33,538 nt of DNA. Origin: Frankia sp. AgB32 (GTDB lineage Bacteria > Actinomycetota > Actinomycetes > Frankiales > Frankiaceae). Positions within the stretch are counted from its first letter, which is position 1, and every line of letters begins with the position of its first letter. The DNA is taken from the NCBI RefSeq assembly GCF_023243045.1, contig NZ_JALKFX010000099.1:1-33538 (forward strand). Reading direction: 5' to 3'. Shown in pieces: positions 1 to 33,538 of this stretch. The position numbers and the translations under genes were made by a program. The notes under the pieces are model-generated. The model was given only the letters and a program-made list of their open reading frames with translations. It was not told the DNA's origin and made no database searches.

Positions 1-35
1 ATCCCGGCGCGCGCCAGGATCGCGGCGCTGGGCCG

Positions 36-1469
36 GTGCCCCCGGTCGACCCCGGCGCGCGCAGCGCGGGGCGAGGCCAGAGCCGTCAGCCAGGGCGCTA
101 TGACGACCGCCCCGACGGGCGTGATCGCCATGACGACGTGGACGGGTACGCCGGCGCCGATCCATACCGGGATCACCACGTCGCACGGGACCCTCGTCGC
201 GCCGCTGCGGGCGTTCCGCCGACGCGGCCCGATCTTCCCGACCTCGACGAGCCGCCCGCGGCGCCGCGGCGTGGCGGTGCGCGCCGCGGGCTGACCATGA
301 TCGCAGCGGCGCTGGCCGCGATCGTGCTGCTGCTCGCCACCACCGGCTGGGCCGTGCTGCGTCACTACGACGGCCGGGTGCGCCACGTGCCGCTGACCTT
401 CTCCTCCGGCGTCGACCGACCGTCGGCGGCGGGTAGCGGAACGCAGAACATCCTGTTGGTCGGGTCGGACTCCCGGTCGGGCACGAACGGTGAGTTCGGC
501 AACGCGGAGGGGCAGCGGTCGGACACGACGATCCTGGCGCACCTCGACGCCAGCGGCTCGACGACGCTGATCTCCTTTCCCCGGGACCTGTGGGTGCGCC
601 TCCCCGCCTACACCGACGCCAAGGGCACCCGGCACGACGCGCAGCGCTCGAAGCTGAACTCGGCCTACTCCTACGGCGGCCCGTCCCTGCTCGTGTCGAC
701 GATCGAGGGCCTCACCGGAATCAGGATCAACCACTACGTCCAGATCGACTTCGTCGGTTTCCAGGGCATGACCGACGCCCTGGGCGGCGTCACCGTCTGC
801 ATCAAGGAACTACCGCCCGAGCTGAAGGCGCGGGGTTTCGACAACCTGCACGACCACTACTCCGGCTTCTCCGGACAGGTGGGGGAGAACCGGCTCAACG
901 GCGCGCAGGCCCTCGCGTTCGTCCGCCAGCGCTACGGTCTGCCGGAGAGCGACATCGACCGGATCCGCCGCCAGCAGCAGTTCCTGGGGGTCGTGTTCAA
1001 GCGGATCGCCTCCTCGGACACCCTGTTCAACCCGTCGAAGCTGATCAACGTGGTGGACGCCGCGACCTCGGCGCTGACCCTCGATGAGGGGACGTCCCTC
1101 GGTGATCTGCGCGGCCTGGCGGTGCGCATGCAGTCCATCGGCACCGGCGGGGTCGCCTTCGCCACGGTGCCCGCGGCAGCCGCCACCCGGGCGGGCCAGA
1201 GCGTCCTCCTGACGGATCCGGCCCAGCTCGGGGCATTCCTCAAGCCCTTCGGCGGCCGGGTCGGCGAGGAGAGCACGACCGGCGCCCTTCCGGCCAGCCC
1301 GGCCGGTGCGCCCGCCCACGCGGTACCCGCCACCTGGTCCGGGTCGGCCTCGGTACAGGCGGCGGCCCTCGCCGCGTCCTCGGCGACCGCGTCCTGGGCG
1401 ACCGCGACCTCGACTGCGGCGGCTGCCACCCAGGAGGCCGCACCGGCGGGCGTCGGCTGTACCTACTGA
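36..1469 (+). CDS. LytR-CpsA-Psr (LCP) family protein, possibly 5'-partial
   Basis: LCP proteins are membrane-anchored enzymes that transfer undecaprenyl-linked glycopolymers (teichoic-acid-like polymers, arabinogalactan) to peptidoglycan outside the cell. The product has an Arg/Asp/Pro-rich cytoplasmic tail (about residues 1-87), one membrane segment (about 88-106), then the LCP domain from about residue 138. The domain shows NILLVGSDSR, the RSDTTIL strand with its Asp, SFPRDLWV, and the conserved Arg-rich stretch DIDRIRRQQQFL. These are the positions that bind pyrophosphate and Mg in characterised LCP proteins. A Pro/Ala/Ser-rich tail follows and ends GVGCTY. The start used is GTG at 36. 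The frame stays open to the window edge and no clear ribosome site is visible, so the gene may begin upstream. It converges on the YihY-type gene, with a tandem duplication across the join. Family assignment is secure; the polymer is unknown. Confidence 0.88.
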   Translation: MPPVDPGARSAGRGQSRQPGRYDDRPDGRDRHDDVDGYAGADPYRDHHVARDPRRAAAGVPPTRPDLPDLDEPPAAPRRGGARRGLTMIAAALAAIVLLLATTGWAVLRHYDGRVRHVPLTFSSGVDRPSAAGSGTQNILLVGSDSRSGTNGEFGNAEGQRSDTTILAHLDASGSTTLISFPRDLWVRLPAYTDAKGTRHDAQRSKLNSAYSYGGPSLLVSTIEGLTGIRINHYVQIDFVGFQGMTDALGGVTVCIKELPPELKARGFDNLHDHYSGFSGQVGENRLNGAQALAFVRQRYGLPESDIDRIRRQQQFLGVVFKRIASSDTLFNPSKLINVVDAATSALTLDEGTSLGDLRGLAVRMQSIGTGGVAFATVPAAAATRAGQSVLLTDPAQLGAFLKPFGGRVGEESTTGALPASPAGAPAHAVPATWSGSASVQAAALAASSATASWATATSTAAAATQEAAPAGVGCTY

Positions 1470-24638: not shown

Positions 24639-24667
24639 ACCGTAGAGCGTTACCTCTATGTGTTCAA
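24639..24667 (-). promoter_or_regulatory. Promoter of the NeuD-type gene (leaderless)
   Basis: Read on the minus strand: -35 TTGAAC (24667-24662), a 17-base spacer, and -10 TACGGT (24644-24639). The GTG start codon at 24632 follows six bases later, so transcription should begin at or near the start codon. No ribosome site is present, which fits. Confidence 0.65.
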
Positions 24668-24671
24668 CTCA

Positions 24672-24684
24672 ACACTCAGAGTGT
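24672..24684. promoter_or_regulatory. Palindrome between the NeuD-type and epimerase genes
   Basis: ACACTCAGAGTGT has perfect 6-base arms around one base. It lies four bases beyond the -35 of the NeuD promoter. Its core ACTCAGAGT matches the centre of the Streptomyces BldD box (ACNCWGNGT), but the outer T and A of that box are missing. It is a candidate operator for the divergent pair. Confidence 0.45.
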
Positions 24685-24792
24685 CCGATGGCGGGTCTGG
24701 TGATCGTGTCGTCGCCCGGAGCGTGGCGCACTGAAGGTGACCTCGAAGCGACTACTATCGGCATCCTTCTGACTTCGAAGGGTGATGAAACG

Positions 24793-25788
24793 GTGAAGGT
24801 AGTCGTGACGGGAGGTGCCGGTTTCATTGGCGCTCACCTGACCAGGGCCCTGCTCGGCGCCGGCGCCGAGGTGGTTGTGATCGACGATCTCAGTACCGGC
24901 GCGGTGTCGAACCTGACCGGCCTGCCGGTGAAGCTGGTGATCGGCAGCGTCACCGACCGCGCCACGGTCGAGGAGGCGTGCACCGGTGCGGACAGCGTCG
25001 TGCATCTGGCCGCCCGGCCGTCGGTGGAGCGTTCGCTGCTCGACCCGATGGCCACCCACGCCGTCAACGCGACCGGCACCCTCACGGTGCTCGACGTCGC
25101 CCAGCGCGCCGAGACGCACGTCGTCGTCGTGTCCTCGTCATCGGTGTATGGCGGGGCGGGCCCGATGCCGCGCGGGGAGGACGCGCCGTGCCGGCCGCGC
25201 AGCCCCTACGCGGCGTCGAAACTCGCCGCCGAGGGGTACGCGCTGTCCTACGGCGCCGCCTTCGACCTGCCGGTGCTCGCCGTGCGGTTGTTCAACGTCT
25301 TCGGGCCCTTCCAGTCGGCGGGCCACGCCTACGCGGCGGTGATCCCCACCTTCATCGAGGCGGCGCTCGCCGGCCGGCCGTTGACGATCCACGGCGACGG
25401 CCGCCAGACGCGCGACTTCACCTACGTCGCGGGCGTCGCCGGAATGCTGTGCGACGCGGCGCTGCGGCGGCTGAGCCATCCGCACCCGGTGAACATCGCC
25501 TTCGGTACGCGGACGGATCTGCTCACCGTCGTCGCCGAGCTGGAGCGGGCCCTCGGCCGTCGGCTCGAGGTCCGCCACGACGCGCCGCGCAACGGCGACG
25601 TCCGCGACTCCCAGGCGGCCACCGCCACGATGCGCGAGCTGTTTCCCGACGTGGTCGGGCCGGAGTTCCCCGACGCGCTGGAGGCGACGCTCGCCTGGTA
25701 CTCCGAGCGGGGCCCGGCCGCGCCGGCCGACCACTCGGCCTCGGCCGGCAGCGGCGGAGCCGCCCCGGCCGCGCCGGAACGGCACTGA
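24793..25788 (+). CDS. NAD-dependent sugar-nucleotide epimerase/dehydratase
   Basis: This short-chain dehydrogenase of the extended type probably acts as a UDP-glucose/UDP-GlcNAc 4-epimerase or related enzyme, supplying activated sugar. Residues 1-13 are MKVVVTGGAGFIG (NAD-binding Gly motif), followed by VVVIDDLSTG. The catalytic set is Ser in VSSSSVYGG and Tyr139/Lys143 in SPYAASK. RLFNVFGPFQ and the HGDGRQTRDFTYVAGVA substrate block are conserved. GTG 24793 is used because the Rossmann fold begins there; the longer open frame adds unrelated residues. An Ala/Pro-rich tail ends the 331-residue protein. It converges with the dehydratase gene, six bases apart. The substrate is not determined by sequence. 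Confidence 0.88.
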   Translation: MKVVVTGGAGFIGAHLTRALLGAGAEVVVIDDLSTGAVSNLTGLPVKLVIGSVTDRATVEEACTGADSVVHLAARPSVERSLLDPMATHAVNATGTLTVLDVAQRAETHVVVVSSSSVYGGAGPMPRGEDAPCRPRSPYAASKLAAEGYALSYGAAFDLPVLAVRLFNVFGPFQSAGHAYAAVIPTFIEAALAGRPLTIHGDGRQTRDFTYVAGVAGMLCDAALRRLSHPHPVNIAFGTRTDLLTVVAELERALGRRLEVRHDAPRNGDVRDSQAATATMRELFPDVVGPEFPDALEATLAWYSERGPAAPADHSASAGSGGAAPAAPERH

Positions 25789-25794
25789 CCACCG

Positions 25795-27801
25795 TCAACG
25801 GGTTGGTGTCTGGCGCCCGTCGGCGGCCCGTGCCACCGGCTGCCGGGGAATCAGGTCCGTGATCTGGCCGGCGGCCGCGGGGGCCTGGTCGGTGGCGGGG
25901 TCGCCGGTCGGCGTGGCGCCGCCTGCCGGGGTGGCGCCGACCAGCACCTGCTCACCCGCGAGCGCCGCGAGCTCGGCGAGCACCGTCGCCGGCGGCGCCC
26001 ACGGGTCGAGGTCGAGTGCCCGGTTCGGATCCAGGGCGGGCACGTCCACGTGGGAGATGAGGGGATGGTGGGGCCGCTGGTCGGACTCGCCGGCGCCGAG
26101 CAGCTCCTCGTGCAGCTTCTCGCCCGGGCCCAGCCCGGTGTAGACGATCTCGATCGGCCGGGACTCCCGCGCCGCGAGACGCCGGGCCACGTCGTCGATT
26201 CGCACCGGCTCGCCCATGTCGAGGACCAGCGCCTCGCCGGGGGCGCCGAGGGCACCGGCCTGCAGGACGAGCTGGACCGCCTCGGGGATGGTCATGAAGT
26301 AGCGGGTGACGTCCGGGTGGGTGACGGTGATCGGGCCGCCGGCGGCGATCTGACTGGCGAAGACCGTCAGCACCGAGCCGTTGGACGCCAGCACGTTGCC
26401 GAAGCGCACGCTGACGAACGTGCCCGTCGCCTCGCGGGCCACGGCCGCGGTGAGCCGCTCGGTGATCCGCTTGGAGAAACCCAGCGCGCTGGTCGGATTG
26501 GCTGCCTTGTCCGTCGAGATGTTCACCAGGCGTTCCACCCCGCAGGCCGCGGCCGTCCGCAGGATCGCGAGCGTGCCCCAGACGTTCGTCTTGACCGACT
26601 CACCGGGAAACCGTTCCAGCAGCGGGAGGTGTTTGAGCGCGGCGGCGTGGAAGACGACCTGCGGGCGGCGCTGCGCGAACAGCTTCGTCATCAGGTCGAG
26701 GTCGCGGATGTCGCCGAGCACGATCGCGTCGTCGTCGAGCATCGCCTGGCCCGTGATGGACAGCTGCACCGCGCGCAGGGCTGACTCGTCCCGGTCCAAC
26801 ATGATCAGTTCGGCCGGTTCGAAGGTGGCGATCTGGCGGCACAGCTCCGAGCCGATCGAACCGCCGGCACCGGTGACCAGGACGCGGCGCCCCACGAGGT
26901 AGCCGGCCGCCGCAGCCATGTCCGTGCTGATCTGTCGCCGGCCGAGCAGATCGGCCAGGTCGAGGTCGCGGATGTCACCCACGCCGACCCGGCCGTCGAT
27001 GAGATCACTGACTCTGGGCAGGACCTTCACGGCGAGTCCGGCATCCTCGGCGATTCTGTTGACCTCCCGGAGCAGTTCGGCATCGGCGCTCGGGATGGCC
27101 ACCAGCAGCGTGCGGGCCCCGGTGGCCGCGGCGACCGCGGCGATCGCGTCCCGTCCGCCACGCACCCGCACGCCGAACAGGCGCAGGTTGTGCAGCCGGG
27201 GGTCGTCGTCGAGCAACGCGATGGGGTAGTAGGGGCTGTCCTGGGTGCGCAGCATGGCGGCCAGGACGCTCTCACCGCCCTGGCCGGCGCCGAAGACGAG
27301 CACCGGCTCGGCCTGGTCGCGGTCCGGTCGGCGCAGCCGTTCCTCGAGCAGCCGCCACAGGTATCGCACGCCGAACATCACCACGAGTGTCACCGTGCCG
27401 CCCAGCGGCGGGACGCTCAGCGGCATCGGCCGCGGCGGGCCGAAGGCGGCGATGACGACGAGCAGCCCGACGATGGTCAGCAACACCGCCACGAGCAGGC
27501 AGAGCACTTCCTCGAAGCCGCCGAACCGGTAACGCCCCAGATAGAGGTGCAGGGCCGTGCCGAGGAAGTGGAGCAGGCAGACCGCGAGCGCGCTGATCAC
27601 CCAGAACCCGAGGCTGGACAGCGCGCTGAGCGAGTAGTCGAACCTGCCGATCTGTGCCGCGGTAAGGCCGACGACCATCGCCACGCTGTCGAGGGCGATC
27701 TGCAACCCGACCCGTTGGCGGAGGTCGAGGCGCGACACGCGCCGCGCGAGCTGCGCTGTCCACCGGCCGTGGGCTGGGCCGTCTACTCTACGTCTCCACA
27801 T
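25795..27801 (-). CDS. WbpM/CapD-type membrane sugar-nucleotide 4,6-dehydratase
   Basis: This large polysaccharide-biosynthesis dehydratase/epimerase makes 4-keto-6-deoxy amino sugar precursors from UDP-GlcNAc (WbpM/FlaA1/CapD family). The 668-residue protein has four membrane segments in the first 150 residues. A CoA-binding-like Rossmann domain follows (VLVFGAGQGGESVLAAML). The catalytic SDR domain has NAD motif GAGGSIG (311-317), FHAAALKHLPLLE, and SxDK-type NISTDKAANPTSALGFSKR with Lys432. It also has VRFGNVLASNGSV, YFMTIPEAVQLVLQA and GLGPGEKLHEELL. The usual catalytic Tyr is replaced by this SxDK arrangement in the membrane-bound group. ATG 27801 has no ribosome site, and TACTCT on the minus strand (27815-27810) could serve as a -10. 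It diverges from the tyrosine kinase. Confidence 0.92.
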   Translation of the reverse strand: MWRRRVDGPAHGRWTAQLARRVSRLDLRQRVGLQIALDSVAMVVGLTAAQIGRFDYSLSALSSLGFWVISALAVCLLHFLGTALHLYLGRYRFGGFEEVLCLLVAVLLTIVGLLVVIAAFGPPRPMPLSVPPLGGTVTLVVMFGVRYLWRLLEERLRRPDRDQAEPVLVFGAGQGGESVLAAMLRTQDSPYYPIALLDDDPRLHNLRLFGVRVRGGRDAIAAVAAATGARTLLVAIPSADAELLREVNRIAEDAGLAVKVLPRVSDLIDGRVGVGDIRDLDLADLLGRRQISTDMAAAAGYLVGRRVLVTGAGGSIGSELCRQIATFEPAELIMLDRDESALRAVQLSITGQAMLDDDAIVLGDIRDLDLMTKLFAQRRPQVVFHAAALKHLPLLERFPGESVKTNVWGTLAILRTAAACGVERLVNISTDKAANPTSALGFSKRITERLTAAVAREATGTFVSVRFGNVLASNGSVLTVFASQIAAGGPITVTHPDVTRYFMTIPEAVQLVLQAGALGAPGEALVLDMGEPVRIDDVARRLAARESRPIEIVYTGLGPGEKLHEELLGAGESDQRPHHPLISHVDVPALDPNRALDLDPWAPPATVLAELAALAGEQVLVGATPAGGATPTGDPATDQAPAAAGQITDLIPRQPVARAADGRQTPTR

Positions 27802-27918: not shown

Positions 27919-29718
27919 GTGGAACTGCGCGACTATGTCCGCGTCCTTCGCCGCAGTTGGATGCTCATGTTGGCCTTTGTCGTGCTCGGCGGCGTACTCG
28001 CCGTCGCCGCGACCTGGCGGACCACGAAGCAGTACGCCGCATCGGTGACCATGGTCGTCTCCTCGCCGGACAGCACCGACGGCGCGGCCGGGGCCTACCA
28101 GGGGAGTCTGCTGTCCCAACAGCGCGTGAAGTCCTACGCCAACCTGGTGTCGAGTGACCGGGTGGCGGGCGCCGTCATCGACCGGCTGCACCTGAAGGCC
28201 ACGCCGGAGGACCTGCGCGGGCACATCGTCGCCGCGGCGGTCCCGGACACGGTGCTGCTGAAGGCAACTGTGCGGGAGCGGGACCCGCGTCAGGCGCAGA
28301 TGATCGCCGACGCGGTCGGCGCCGAGTTCACCCGCGCCGTCGCCCAGATCGAGGCGCCCTCGAACGACCAGCCGCCCTCGGTGCGGGTGAGTGTGTGGGA
28401 ACGCGCGAAGCGGCCGGACTCGCCGGTCACGCCCCAGCCGACCCGCAACGTCGCCCTGGGCATCCTGCTCGGCCTGATCCTCGGGATCTCCGCGGCGATC
28501 ATCCGGTTCCGCCTCGACACCAGCATCACCGGACCGGACGACGCCGCGGACGCCACCAACCTGCCCAACCTGGCGACGATCGGCTATGACACCGACACGG
28601 TGCGCCGGCCGCTCATCACCGAGGCCCGGCCGCACTCGGCCCGCGCCGAGGCCTTCCGCCAGCTACGCACCAACCTCCAGTTCGTCGACGTCGACGCCGG
28701 CCCGCGGTCGATCATCGTCACCAGCTCGCTGCCGGGCGAAGGCAAGACCACCACGGCCTGCAACCTCGCGATCAGCCTCGCGCAGAGCGGGCACCGGGTC
28801 TGCCTGATCGAGGGCGACCTGCGCCGGCCGTCGTTCGGCGCCTACCTCGGCGTCGAGTCCGCCGCCGGGCTCACCTCCGTGCTCATCGGCGCCGCCGATC
28901 TTGACGACGTGTTGCAGCCCTGGGGCGAGGGGCGGGTCGGCGCCGGCAAGGTCGAGGTGCTTGCCTCCGGGCCGGTCCCGCCGAACCCCTCCGAACTGCT
29001 CGGTTCCAAGAACATGGCGGAGCTCATCGAGCTGCTGCACTCCCGGTTCGACTACGTGCTCATCGACGCGCCGCCACTGCTGCCGGTCACCGACGCCGCC
29101 GTGCTTGCCACCCGCACCGACGGCGTGCTGCTGGTGGCCCGGGTCGGCCGGATCCGCCGCGAGCAGCTTCGCCGCGCCACCGACGCGCTGCGCGCGGTGG
29201 ACGCCAGAATGGTCGGCACGGTGCTCAACATGGTTCCGACCAGGGGCCCGGATGCTTACTACTACGGCCAGTACAGCAGCTACGCGCCGCGGGGCCGACA
29301 CGCCCGGGCGAGCGCCGAGCGTGCGGCGCTGAGTGCGGCGTCGGATGCCGGCGTCCGGCCGGCCCGGCCGGTCGGCGCCGGGCCGGACGGCTCCCCGCGC
29401 GCCACCCGTGAGGCCGGGGCGGTGCCGGCCGCCCGCAGGCCCGGCGAGGGCCGCCGGGCCAACCCGGCTGGATCCGGCCGGGGCAAGGCGGGCCCGAACC
29501 CGGCAGGCGGGGCGCGGACGGGCACCCGCGAGCCCGCCGGGGCGGCCGGAGCCGCACCGCGCGCCGCCGCCGACCCCAGCGGCCGCGGCATGCGGCGGGG
29601 CACGGCCCAGCCCGCTGACGGCGGGCGCCCGGCCGAGGCCACCGACGAATCCGCGTCACCCGAGTCCGGGACGGCGCCAGGCGGCCAGGCCGCCGCCCGG
29701 CCGCCGTCCGGTCGGTGA
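27919..29718 (+). CDS. Wzc-like polysaccharide co-polymerase and bacterial tyrosine kinase
   Basis: It combines a chain-length (Wzz) domain and a BY-kinase domain in one polypeptide, controlling polymer length and export at the membrane. Residues 1-35 carry the Wzz start (MELRDYVRVLRRSW) and first membrane helix. A second helix lies near 185-200 (NVALGILLGLILGISAAII). The kinase has Walker A SSLPGEGKTTT (from about 268), Walker A' CLIEGDLRRP (Asp300) and Walker B VLIDAPPLLP (Asp383). The Tyr cluster DAYYYGQYSSY (Tyr447-455) is the expected autophosphorylation site. A further 140 residues are Ala/Pro/Gly/Arg-rich and unusual. GTG 27919 follows GGGAGGG by about ten bases. The stop overlaps the DUF4012 gene start by four bases. 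Confidence 0.92.
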   Translation: MELRDYVRVLRRSWMLMLAFVVLGGVLAVAATWRTTKQYAASVTMVVSSPDSTDGAAGAYQGSLLSQQRVKSYANLVSSDRVAGAVIDRLHLKATPEDLRGHIVAAAVPDTVLLKATVRERDPRQAQMIADAVGAEFTRAVAQIEAPSNDQPPSVRVSVWERAKRPDSPVTPQPTRNVALGILLGLILGISAAIIRFRLDTSITGPDDAADATNLPNLATIGYDTDTVRRPLITEARPHSARAEAFRQLRTNLQFVDVDAGPRSIIVTSSLPGEGKTTTACNLAISLAQSGHRVCLIEGDLRRPSFGAYLGVESAAGLTSVLIGAADLDDVLQPWGEGRVGAGKVEVLASGPVPPNPSELLGSKNMAELIELLHSRFDYVLIDAPPLLPVTDAAVLATRTDGVLLVARVGRIRREQLRRATDALRAVDARMVGTVLNMVPTRGPDAYYYGQYSSYAPRGRHARASAERAALSAASDAGVRPARPVGAGPDGSPRATREAGAVPAARRPGEGRRANPAGSGRGKAGPNPAGGARTGTREPAGAAGAAPRAAADPSGRGMRRGTAQPADGGRPAEATDESASPESGTAPGGQAAARPPSGR

Positions 29719-31916
29719 CGGCTGGCGGGTCGGGGGACGAGACCAGCGCGGGTTCCGGCGACCGCCGGCCCGCTGACCCGGCGGCCACCGGCGCCATCCC
29801 GCGCCAGGCGGGAGCGCGCGCGGCGCCGGACGGCACCCAGCGCCACGCCGAGGCCCACAACGGTGCTGCGGGCACCCGCCCGGCCGGCCGACCGCCAACC
29901 GGGCTGCCCCGTCAGCCCGGCGCCGGTCGGCCGATCCGGCCGGGCACCATCGGCGCCGGGCGGGCGGCGCAGGACGCCGATCTCGTCGGCGCGCCAGCGC
30001 TCGGTGAGGTCCCGGCGGCTGGCCCGGCGGCTGTTTCCGGCACCGCGGCCGCGGCGGGAGACGGCACGCCCGCCGCCCCGGCGGGCGAAACCGGCGAGGG
30101 CGGGCCGCGGCGGCCCCAGGGGCGTCGGCGCTGGCTCGTCGGCGGTGGCGCGCTGGTGTTCGCCGTGCTCGTCGGCCTGGTCGGCTGGGTGGCGGTCCGC
30201 GGCCTGATGGCCCGTACGCAGCTCGACCAGGCCCGGTCCCGCATCGCCGCGCTGCAGCAGCAGGCACTGGCGGGACACCTCCCGCCGGACGCGGAACTGC
30301 GCGCGCAGGTGGCGGCGATCGGCGAACGGGCCCGGGCCGCCCGCTCGCTCACCGGGGACCCGGTGTGGTCGGCGTTCGGCCATCTGCCGTGGGCCGGCTG
30401 CCCGTTGCGCTCCGCGGCGGGTCTGGTCCAGGCCGTCGACACCGTGGCGGGCACCGGACTGCCGGCGGTCGCCGACCTCGGCAGCACGCTGAACCCGAGC
30501 CGCCTGCGGCATGAGATGACCGTTGATGTGGCCGCGCTGGCCGCGGCCCGCGCGCCGGCGCAGCGGGCGACGGCCGCCCTCGACACGCTGCGGGCCGCGG
30601 CCGAGCGGACTCCGGTGTGCGGCTGGACGGGTCGGGTCAGCGGCGTCGACGACGCGCGGGCGGAGCTGATCCACCGGGGCACGACGCTCTCCGGGGCCCT
30701 GGACAACGTGGCGCTGGCCGCGCGGATCGGGCCGGACATGCTCGGCGCCACCGGGCGGCGGCGCTACCTGCTGGTCGTCCAGAACCCGGCCGAGTCGCGG
30801 GCGGACGGCGGGATCATCGGCGGCTACGGTCTGCTGACGGCCGACCGCGGCAAGCTGTCGCTGGACGGCATCTCCGGGAACGGTTCGCTGCCGGGCGGCC
30901 CGACGCAGGCGAGCTCGACCGCGGACCTGCCCGCGCCGTTCGCGGCCCGCTACGGCTCGTTCTGGCCGGACCGGGTCTGGGCGAACGCCAACCTGACGCC
31001 CGACTATCCGACCGCCGGCCGCCTCTACACCGGCCTCTACCGGGCCGGAACCGGTATCGAGGTGGACGGGACCATCAGCGTCGACCCGACGACGCTGTCG
31101 TACCTGCTGGCCGCGAGCCGGCCCGCCGTCCTGCCCGGCGGTCAGGTCGTCACCGCGAACAACCTCGTCGACCTGGTCGAATCCAAGGTGTACGAGCAGG
31201 TGCCGACGGTGGACGGCCGGGACCGTTTCTTCGCGCAGGTGGGTCAGGCCGTCTATGCGTCGGTGGTGTCCGGCGCGGGCGACACCACCAGGCTTCTCAC
31301 CGGACTCGCGAAGGCGGCCCGAGAAGGACGCCTGACCGTGTCAAGCAACCACGCCGATGAACAGGACGTGCTTTCGGCGACGGCCCTGGGGGGAGCGCTG
31401 CCCACGGGTAACGGTCCGTATCTCGCCGTCGTCACCCAGAACGCCGCGGCCAGCAAGCTCGACTACTGGCTTCGCCGGCAGACCACCTACCGCGTGCAGC
31501 GGATGCCGGGTGGCGCCGGGGCGGTCACCATCGTGATCAGGCTGACCAGCGTGGCCCCGGACCACCTGTCGGACTACGTGCGCAACCGGGAGGACGAGGC
31601 GCGTCCCAACGGTAACCCCACCGGCCAGAACAACATCTGGCTGTCGGTGTACACGGGGCGGGACAGCCTGTTCGCCGGGGCCAGCCTCGACGGCCAGCCG
31701 ATCGGCCTGGCCACCGGGTCCGAGAACGGCCTGCCGGTGGTCTCCACCTACCTGACGGTCGACCGCGGCCAGACCCGGACCCTTGAGATCAAGGTGCTCG
31801 AACCGAAGGCGGGCCCCGCCCTCGCGGTCCGGCCGCAACCGCTGCCCGTGCCGGAGCGCCTCGACGTCGAGGGGGTACCGGTCACCTCTCCATGGTCACG
31901 CAGCGTTAGAAACTGA
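29715..31916 (+). CDS. DUF4012 membrane protein of the polysaccharide operon
   Basis: The 733-residue protein has a disordered Ala/Pro/Gly/Arg-rich cytoplasmic part (about 1-137), one membrane helix (about 141-162, WLVGGGALVFAVLVGLVGWVAV), and a large extracytoplasmic region. That region includes RRYLLVVQNPAESRADGGIIGGYGLLTADRGKLSL and WANANLTPDYPTAGRLY, the signature of DUF4012 proteins. These occur in actinobacterial capsule and exopolysaccharide loci; a role in export or attachment is suspected, not shown. The start codon overlaps the kinase stop (GTGA), so the two are translationally coupled. It ends in a region with DRGQTRTLEIKVLEP, a beta-rich C-terminal part. A palindromic promoter follows 12 bases after the stop. 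Confidence 0.85.
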   Translation: MTAGGSGDETSAGSGDRRPADPAATGAIPRQAGARAAPDGTQRHAEAHNGAAGTRPAGRPPTGLPRQPGAGRPIRPGTIGAGRAAQDADLVGAPALGEVPAAGPAAVSGTAAAAGDGTPAAPAGETGEGGPRRPQGRRRWLVGGGALVFAVLVGLVGWVAVRGLMARTQLDQARSRIAALQQQALAGHLPPDAELRAQVAAIGERARAARSLTGDPVWSAFGHLPWAGCPLRSAAGLVQAVDTVAGTGLPAVADLGSTLNPSRLRHEMTVDVAALAAARAPAQRATAALDTLRAAAERTPVCGWTGRVSGVDDARAELIHRGTTLSGALDNVALAARIGPDMLGATGRRRYLLVVQNPAESRADGGIIGGYGLLTADRGKLSLDGISGNGSLPGGPTQASSTADLPAPFAARYGSFWPDRVWANANLTPDYPTAGRLYTGLYRAGTGIEVDGTISVDPTTLSYLLAASRPAVLPGGQVVTANNLVDLVESKVYEQVPTVDGRDRFFAQVGQAVYASVVSGAGDTTRLLTGLAKAAREGRLTVSSNHADEQDVLSATALGGALPTGNGPYLAVVTQNAAASKLDYWLRRQTTYRVQRMPGGAGAVTIVIRLTSVAPDHLSDYVRNREDEARPNGNPTGQNNIWLSVYTGRDSLFAGASLDGQPIGLATGSENGLPVVSTYLTVDRGQTRTLEIKVLEPKAGPALAVRPQPLPVPERLDVEGVPVTSPWSRSVRN

Positions 31917-31928
31917 CTGCGGAGGTCG

Positions 31929-31964
31929 TAGACACGGAGAGTAGTCGTCGATACTCTCCGTGTC
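31929..31964 (+). promoter_or_regulatory. Promoter of the surface-protein gene embedded in a 13-base-arm palindrome
   Basis: A -35 TAGACA (31929-31934, five of six to consensus) and a -10 TACTCT (31952-31957) are 17 bases apart. They are covered by a perfect inverted repeat: GACACGGAGAGTA (31931-31943), 8-base spacer, TACTCTCCGTGTC (31952-31964). A dimeric repressor or activator binding here would span both promoter elements. Alternatively the hairpin ends the DUF4012 transcript; no T run follows. Confidence 0.6.
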
Positions 31965-32014
31965 GTCAATCGTTCATCTGCTTGACCTGATCATCTCGCA
32001 GGGAGAGTGCCTGT

Positions 32015-33406
32015 ATGAAGTTCCGACCTCTCGGAGTCGCGCTGGTGGCAGGCGGCGGCGTGGCGCTAGCCGCCCTGCCGGCCTCTCCAGCCGCTGCACT
32101 CAACGACGACCAGCCCCTCATCAGCGACAACGCCTACCCGCCGGTCAGCTGCGCCGGTGCCACCGGCACGGGCACAGTCAGCAAGTCCGTGGTGCTCGCC
32201 GGCGAGAGCGTCGTGTTCAGCGGCTGCGGATTCGTCCCCGGAACCGCCGTCAGCATCGAGGTCAACGGCGTCCCACGCACGACCACGATCGCGGGCCACT
32301 CCGGTGCCTTCAGCGTCCCTCTGAACTTCCCGACCGCCGGCCAGCAGCACCTCTCCGCCTCCGGCAGGGGACTGCTGACCACGGGAACGACCGCGGTCGG
32401 GCCCGGAACGGGGAGGCCGCCCGTCAAGGACGCCCCGATCCTCGGTGACGACACCGGCGGCGGCCTGTTCGATGACAAGGATGGTCACGGCGGCGGCCTG
32501 TTCGATGACAAGGATGGTCACGGCGGCGGCCTGTTCGATGACAAGGATGGTCACGGCGGCGGCGGCCGGTACGACGGCGAGGACGCGCCGGTCCTCCTGC
32601 CCGCCCCAGGCACGGCGGCTGCCCCGGTGACCACGCCGGCCGGTCCGGCCACCGGAGGCGTCGCCGCGCCGGGTACCGGCGTTGTTCCCCCGGCGCCCGG
32701 CACCGCGCCGGCGCCGGCCCCCGTCGGTCCGGTCGTCCCGCCGATCAACATCGGCCTGGCCGCGTCGCTCGACCCGGCCGCGTCGTGGAGGCCGACGACA
32801 CGCATCGTCACCGCGAACGTGCTGGTCATCGGCATTGACGAGGATGGCATCCACGGCCTGCCCTTCGACCCGCGCTGGATCCCCAACTTCATCGGCAGCT
32901 TCCTCGACAAGGACAAGGACCACGACAAGGACCACGACAAGGACGGCCACGGCGGTGGCGGTGTCGGCAACTGCTTCGGCAATGTCGGTGGTGACAGGGA
33001 CGGCAAGGACGGCAAGGACAACTGGGGCGACAAGAACGGGACCAAGGACGCCCAGGCCTCCGAACTCAGCGACAAGGACGGCAAGGACGGCAAGGACTTC
33101 GCCGACAAGGACGGCAAGGACGGCAAGGACTTCGCCGACAAGGACCACAAGGACGGCGTGGACGGCAACGGCGTCCCGTGTGTCGTCGCCGGAGTAGGCG
33201 TCGGCGTCGTCGGCGGCGGCGGCGGTGTGGGTGCCGGCGCGGCTGCGCCCGGCGGCGGCGCACTGCCGTTCACCGGAGTCGAGACCGGGGCGCTGGCCTC
33301 GATCGCGGTAGCTCTGCTCGGCGGAGGCGCGCTGCTGCGGGTCGCCGCCCGTCGCCGCCGCATCGTCGGCGCGACCCCGGCCACCGTGACCAGGACCGAG
33401 GCCTGA
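32015..33406 (+). CDS. Sortase-anchored Asp/Lys/Gly-repeat surface protein
   Basis: The secreted, wall-linked protein has a Sec signal (MKFRPLGVALVAGG...PAAA, cleavage near residue 28). An N-terminal Ig-like domain with two Cys (SCAGATG and FSGCGFVPG) follows. Three identical 11-residue repeats GGGLFDDKDGH come next (residues 148-180), then a Pro/Ala linker. A region of DKDG/KDGKD repeats runs from about residue 295 to 385, with two further Cys (GNCFGNVGG, VPCVVAG). The C-terminus has LPFTG (417-421), a hydrophobic helix and RRRR, a sortase signal, with an extra 14 residues after the Arg cluster. DxDG-type repeats could bind calcium (inference). ATG 32015 has GGGAG about nine bases upstream. 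No similar named protein is recognised. It lies beside polysaccharide genes with its own promoter. Confidence 0.85.
   Translation: MKFRPLGVALVAGGGVALAALPASPAAALNDDQPLISDNAYPPVSCAGATGTGTVSKSVVLAGESVVFSGCGFVPGTAVSIEVNGVPRTTTIAGHSGAFSVPLNFPTAGQQHLSASGRGLLTTGTTAVGPGTGRPPVKDAPILGDDTGGGLFDDKDGHGGGLFDDKDGHGGGLFDDKDGHGGGGRYDGEDAPVLLPAPGTAAAPVTTPAGPATGGVAAPGTGVVPPAPGTAPAPAPVGPVVPPINIGLAASLDPAASWRPTTRIVTANVLVIGIDEDGIHGLPFDPRWIPNFIGSFLDKDKDHDKDHDKDGHGGGGVGNCFGNVGGDRDGKDGKDNWGDKNGTKDAQASELSDKDGKDGKDFADKDGKDGKDFADKDHKDGVDGNGVPCVVAGVGVGVVGGGGGVGAGAAAPGGGALPFTGVETGALASIAVALLGGGALLRVAARRRRIVGATPATVTRTEA
32456..32554. repeat. 33-bp perfect tandem repeat (3 copies) in the surface-protein gene
   Basis: Three identical 33-base units (32456-32488, 32489-32521, 32522-32554) encode GGGLFDDKDGH each time. 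Absence of even silent changes points to recent expansion or ongoing homogenisation. Confidence 0.95.
32906..33156. repeat. Degenerate GACAAGGAC-type repeat tract encoding Asp-Lys-Asp/Lys-Asp-Gly
   Basis: Units such as GACAAGGACCAC, GACGGCAAGGAC and the longer block ending KDFADKDGKDG recur through this stretch. They encode an alternating acidic/basic/Gly sequence with internal duplication (KDGKDFAD occurs twice in a row). Confidence 0.8.

Positions 33407-33427: not shown

Positions 33428-33538
<111 letters not shown>

Follow-up and report, generated by a model that had tools for sequence, protein, structure and literature searches.

A gene near the end of a Frankia sp. AgB32 contig may encode the wall-anchored partner of DUF4012, the product of the gene immediately upstream in a polysaccharide cluster; DUF4012 would load polysaccharide onto this LPFTG protein or dock it there, a model to which we give a little less than an even chance. 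The export, anchoring and gene linkage of the LPFTG protein are predicted from sequence, the presence of an LCP-type glycopolymer-transferase domain in DUF4012 is supported, not proven, and glycan transfer by DUF4012 is proposed by analogy with the LcpA–GspA pair of A. oris. Judged by homology and gene order, the LPFTG protein is one member of a broader family that has no name in the libraries searched and whose genes accompany DUF4012 in a polysaccharide locus. This family had been overlooked in an earlier, sequence-only reading of the window (the whole stretch of DNA analysed, 33,538 nucleotides of contig NZ_JALKFX010000099.1), in which the following features lie.

24658..25788, forward strand: NAD-dependent sugar epimerase/dehydratase (PF01370, 1.6e-58)
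25795..27801, reverse strand: polysaccharide biosynthesis dehydratase, divergent (PF02719, 2.1e-98)
27919..29718, forward strand: Wzz/tyrosine autokinase, polysaccharide chain-length control (PF02706, TIGR01007)
29715..31916, forward strand: DUF4012 protein (PF13196, 2.4e-41)
about 30747–31382, forward strand: LCP-like part of the DUF4012 gene (structure match, hhalign)
about 31395–31895, forward strand: C-terminal beta domain of the DUF4012 gene (structure match)
31917..32014, forward strand: intergenic leader between the DUF4012 and LPFTG genes (80% mean column identity)
31931–31943 and 31952–31964: perfect 13-bp inverted repeat in the leader, with an 8-bp loop
32015..33406, forward strand: predicted LPFTG wall-anchored protein, 463 aa, ATG start (ORF)
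about residues 1–28 of the LPFTG protein: signal peptide (called by eye)
32135..32380, forward strand: Ig-like domain, about residues 41–122, with Cys46/Cys71 (AF2, Foldseek, orthologue Cys spacing, HMM)
32455..32563, forward strand: three identical 33-bp repeats, GGGLFDDKDGH (TRF, 3.3 copies, 100%)
32789..32854, forward strand: beta-hairpin, residues 259–280, RIVTANVLVIG... (AF2, alignment)
32906..33163, forward strand: Asp/Lys/Gly polyampholyte tract, residues 298–383 (composition, AF2)
32972..33181, forward strand: Cys320 and Cys389, near the two tract ends (orthologue comparison)
33263..33361, forward strand: sorting signal with LPFTG (417–421), hydrophobic stretch and RRRR (nearly invariant in 14 aligned orthologues)

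The Wzz/tyrosine kinase, DUF4012 and LPFTG genes form a conserved Frankiaceae block, with the LPFTG gene last. A canonical LCP gene opens the window (3–1469; PF03816, 1.8e-42). At the other end, the contig closes on about 90 bases that are nearly all C (33449–33538), probably a sequencing or assembly artefact.

Inspection by eye finds in the LPFTG protein a signal peptide, an LPXTG motif, a hydrophobic stretch and a basic tail, Arg-rich after the hydrophobic stretch, as in a sortase substrate, and the PF04203 sortase domain scores over its cut-off at three places in the same genome. The Ig-like domain is modelled with a pLDDT of 94–96 across residues 51–120 (AF2). Foldseek gave it no match at E<=0.001, its top matches being weak ones to Ig-like, CARDB and intimin-type domains (from E 1.8e-3). 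A proline/alanine linker lies between the repeats and the beta-hairpin; the hairpin reaches a pLDDT of about 95, dropping to 84 (AF2), and is also visible in the alignment. The open reading frame, the Ig-like domain, the three perfect 33-bp repeats, the Asp/Lys tract and the LPFTG signal, all called earlier from the letters, were confirmed by ORF analysis, TRF, AF2 and orthologue alignment. The view that this architecture falls outside the named families also held up in profile searches. A Pfam scan of the protein returned zero matches, and an NCBIfam scan returned only two, both over the Ig-like domain and both weak and below threshold: Ca_tandemer NF033510 (17.1 bits against a cut-off of 50) and GxPGS_dom NF058592 (16.3 bits against 45). 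Membership in a named protein family was rejected on these grounds.

Relatives of the LPFTG protein were found in 29 of the 58 genomes searched, all within the same family (29/35, against 0/23 for other families), the named ones being Frankia, Parafrankia and Pseudofrankia. Because of this distribution, the sequence comparison identifies a Frankiaceae-wide protein family and a real gene, not a chance reading frame. An alignment of 14 orthologues (mean column identity 35%) shows strong conservation at both ends, in the signal peptide and in the anchor with its LPFTG, hydrophobic stretch and RVAARRRR; the middle is variable, and low-complexity regions differ widely. In 24 of the 29 matching Frankiaceae genomes, DUF4012 is followed immediately by this gene. 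One of the five exceptions is a contig that starts inside the gene (G012); the others belong to a single Frankiaceae genus (G020, G023, G026, G029; loci L070–L073), in which DUF4012 is followed by a small, anchor-less Ig-domain protein and, in G023, by a further Ig protein with a variant LPVSG signal (L167, 12362–13102). Six of the 35 Frankiaceae genomes have no match to the LPFTG protein. DUF4012 is still present in four of these (G003, G010, G015, G018), with the partner reduced to a decayed 5' remnant in G003 (L142, 9059–9274) and no partner gene in G010 (L143), while G006 and G014 have neither. The orthologue L062 is a short form, without an Ig domain, that consists of a signal peptide, a charged tract and an anchor; L046 is listed with it as a short Ig-less form. 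A second DUF4012 gene occurs in four Frankiaceae genomes (L160, L161, L162, L163), and there the gene lists show no neighbour with a plausible sorting signal.

The perfect repeats had been taken as a sign of recent change, and the orthologues bear this out: GGGLFDDKDGH occurs in one of 24 syntenic orthologues, the window protein itself, and in 0/23 others. Since it is missing from those 23, the repeat is, on this comparison, a lineage-level addition and not a defining feature of the protein. Another 33-bp array lies in the same gene at 33070–33157 (96% match, TRF), and in orthologues L057, L065 and L066 LFDDK motifs are repeated ahead of the Ig domain, at a different site from the window's repeats. 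Repeat variation in a surface protein, serving evasion or escape from phage, would account for perfect repeats confined to one lineage and for the wide divergence of the low-complexity regions, but the ends of the protein are conserved and the gene keeps the same locus; we consider this explanation very improbable.

The linkage to DUF4012 extends beyond the Frankiaceae. DUF4012 itself is present in 80 of 148 genomes of the host's actinobacterial class. Forty non-Frankiaceae DUF4012 regions of up to 12 kb were taken among the higher-scoring matches with flank room, and a further 17 regions were of unequal length (3–15 kb, three genomes occurring twice); an ORF with a sorting signal was present in 29/57 (20/40 and 9/17). 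Control regions came from the same contigs, tens of kb away; five genomes each supplied two controls out of the 40, and five DUF4012 regions had no control of their own. Only 1/40 contained such an ORF, which looks spurious. The comparison of 20/40 with 1/40 gives a Fisher p of 1.1e-6, a value that is too small given that genomes of one family are not independent. A looser rule gave 22/40 against 2/40, where one of the extra DUF4012 matches (L233) and both control matches look spurious. The sorting-signal ORFs come from 8 of the 13 families in the 40-region set and share the strand of DUF4012 in 19/20 cases. The gap to the DUF4012 match is 3–391 bp in 18/20, one ORF overlaps it in an open frame, and one lies 1.9 kb away. 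Within 1.5 kb of the domain, such an ORF was found at 17/40 DUF4012 regions versus 0/34 canonical LCP loci, 22 of those 34 being Frankiaceae. The remaining 28/57 regions have no strict sorting-signal neighbour, and L207, L217 and L241 have neighbours with variant signals that fall outside the strict rule. A linkage of sortase genes to DUF4012 regions was discarded as not meaningful (3/40 vs 1/40).

Homology of the partners adds to this. An HMM built from 23 Frankiaceae Ig domains, searched against 9,174 frames from 105 regions, gave 11 matches at E<1e-3, nine in non-Frankiaceae DUF4012 regions and two in one Frankiaceae region, with 0 matches in the 40 control regions. Were the LPFTG protein an unrelated surface protein, and its gene no more than a neighbour or operon companion of the polysaccharide genes, the absence of the gene from G010 would fit, as would its own highly conserved leader, which suggests separate transcription; however, cross-family linkage and Ig homology are hard to ascribe to chance, and we hold this explanation to be quite unlikely.

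That leader is far better conserved than the protein (80% mean column identity in 14 sequences, short flanks included, against 35%), and the core of its inverted repeat occurs once in the genome. It is a candidate promoter or operator. An RNA element was rejected, an Rfam search of the leader giving no match. Passages of PMC5650626 describe the MtrA site as GTnAC-N5-GTnAC. In a comparison of 14 leaders, these repeats are absent from that of the window, occur loosely at the inverted-repeat site in three (L040, L043, L044) and lie further upstream, again loosely, in two more (L036, L037). An MtrA-type operator was set aside, as a lead.

Is DUF4012 an LCP-like enzyme? Its AlphaFold model is mediocre (pLDDT 66.5), and the LCP-like match spans model residues 174–385. 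The top structural alignments are to 3pe5 (Z 9.7), the LytR LCP domain 8qty (9.0) and A. oris LcpA 5v8c (8.4), with 167–184 residues aligned in the top LCP rows and with the aligner's caveat that Z below 8 may reflect a common arrangement. The untitled entries 3pe5 and 3okz, and those titled 'transcriptional regulator', we take to be LCP proteins. Profile comparison by hhalign of DUF4012 with actinobacterial LCP proteins gave scores of 33.3–36.6 (P 4.2e-4 to 2e-3, probability 14–34%), against 15.2–19.9 for reversed profiles and 12.9 for a sortase profile; global mode failed. The LCP Pfam model PF03816 matched 0/26 DUF4012 sequences at E<=10, and a DUF4012 profile matched nothing among PDB sequences. 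The predicted fold is thus like that of the LCP family (PF03816: TagT, Cps2A, LytR), from which DUF4012 differs in lacking a Pfam match and in its marginal sequence similarity. Taken together, model and profiles suggest that DUF4012 is probably a remote LCP homologue. An identity as an M1 aminopeptidase, ranked first by Foldseek, was rejected, the match falling on the C-terminal part. This C-terminal beta domain (31395–31895) aligns with oligosaccharyltransferase chains (8pn9_E and 6s7t_E, both Z 7.8) as well as with M1 aminopeptidase domains, a likeness that could reflect a common fold.

The arginines that matter in LCP enzymes give a mixed picture. R331 of the DUF4012 model, Arg in 23/26 sequences, is aligned by hhalign, marginally, to an invariant LCP Arg, which we infer to be LcpA R266. 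According to passages of PMC6381275, LcpA R149 is needed for catalysis, and we take it as the arginine of the PRD motif; no clear counterpart of the PRD arginine was seen in DUF4012. R191 of the model is a further conserved arginine.

The closest known system is that of A. oris, in which, in the portions of PMC6381275 consulted, lcpA lies next to gspA, whose sortase-anchored product GspA is glycosylated by LcpA. What the two share is a gene for an LCP-fold enzyme (here predicted) beside one for a sortase-anchored protein in an actinobacterium. This adjacency of enzyme and sortase substrate was found at 24 Frankiaceae loci; outside the family, 29/57 regions contain such a substrate gene, in most cases next to DUF4012 where the distance was measured. 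DUF4012 differs from LcpA in falling outside PF03816, in its extra C-terminal beta domain and in having no obvious PRD arginine. A second precedent is the EPS locus of B. longum 105-A, where, in sections of PMC5412050, DUF4012 (PF13196) adjoins wzz, as it does here; the words 'sortase' and 'LPXTG' are absent from the main text of that paper.

By this analogy, DUF4012 would take the polysaccharide made by the cluster from its lipid carrier and transfer it onto the LPFTG protein, or dock it there. Sortase would fix the LPFTG protein to peptidoglycan after or during glycan loading, making it the anchor of a sugar coat. The Ig domain may serve as a recognition module, and the Asp/Lys tract, probably a disulfide-closed loop, as a spacer or acceptor region of mixed charge, flexible and hydrated, that would push the glycan outward.

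The tract of the window protein is 86 aa long (D25 E1 K16 R1) and has a pLDDT below 50 over most of its length (AF2), i.e. it is modelled as disorder. Summed over 24 orthologues its composition is D653 E36 K287 R197, with a median net charge of −0.10 per residue; it is a weakly acidic polyampholyte, modelled as disordered. All 21 orthologues whose tract reaches 30 aa have a cysteine near each end of it, and besides this pair and the Ig pair their mature proteins have no cysteine before LPFTG; Cys320 sits 22 residues inside the tract of the window protein. The Ig pair is spaced by exactly 25 residues in 21/24 orthologues. The natural inference from these pairs is two disulfides, one of which would turn the greater part of the tract into a closed loop. 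A collagen-like reading was rejected, the longest Gly-X-Y run being 2 in the tract of the window protein; in the orthologue L062 it reaches 16.

Binding of metal or polymer had been an early guess for this region. An adhesin made of Asp/Lys repeats that binds calcium or self-associates would be in keeping with an Asp-rich tract and its extreme preference for Asp over Glu (653 vs 36). The motif D-x-[DN]-x-[DN]-G, however, is not enriched (9 observed vs 12.4 expected from shuffles, 21 tracts), which led us to reject calcium-binding loops of EF-hand or thrombospondin-3 type. Lys and Arg balance about 70% of the acidic residues (484 against 689), and the short Gly-X-Y run of the window tract also speaks against such an adhesin, which we judge improbable, a shade more so than an unrelated neighbour. 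The guess thus loses its canonical calcium loops and keeps polymer binding, the best fit to the polysaccharide context.

Polymer binding could also be non-covalent. The LPFTG protein would then be a scaffold that holds or spaces polysaccharide through charge and hydration, and DUF4012 would join the glycan to peptidoglycan like ordinary LCP enzymes. A polyampholyte modelled as disorder suits such a scaffold, the linkage of DUF4012 to sorting-signal ORFs fits it equally, and some partners from other families have Asp- or Glu-rich stretches. The tract, however, is almost missing in L075 and short in L063 and L064, and an Asp/Lys tract is absent from the partners shown for other families; charge pairing is therefore unlikely as the shared function. 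We regard the scaffold as unlikely, albeit the least so of the alternatives.

The loading model, which we prefer, has its own points against it: chiefly the lack of a clear counterpart of the PRD arginine, then the mediocre DUF4012 model, the low hhalign probability with its failed global mode, the want of any match to the LCP Pfam model, the 28/57 regions without a strict neighbour, and the occurrence of DUF4012 beyond actinobacteria too, reported in passages of PMC6744442. The four Frankiaceae genomes with DUF4012 and no LPFTG match, and the partners elsewhere without an Asp/Lys tract, also weigh against it. In its more general form, which we think doubtful as a whole, DUF4012 would be a second, unrecognised class of LCP-like glycopolymer transferase, and the adjacent Ig-domain sortase substrate would serve it as a dedicated acceptor in actinobacteria. 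Capsule-like polysaccharide would then be placed on a protein and not directly on peptidoglycan, and the Frankia member would add its disulfide-closed Asp/Lys loop as a spacer or attachment region.

In the portions of the searched literature that mention it, DUF4012 is described as an unknown or auxiliary envelope protein, in two cases within a polysaccharide cluster. No earlier report of its pairing with a sortase substrate was found in the literature searched, and titles and abstract openings on Frankia with sortase or LPXTG contained nothing on the LPFTG protein. A recurrent partner and an LCP-like fold give DUF4012 a role that is directly testable. If the model is true, polysaccharide anchored on a wall protein would be a common arrangement among actinobacteria and no peculiarity of a single oral species; Frankia, a nitrogen-fixing symbiont, would have a known attachment point for its coat.
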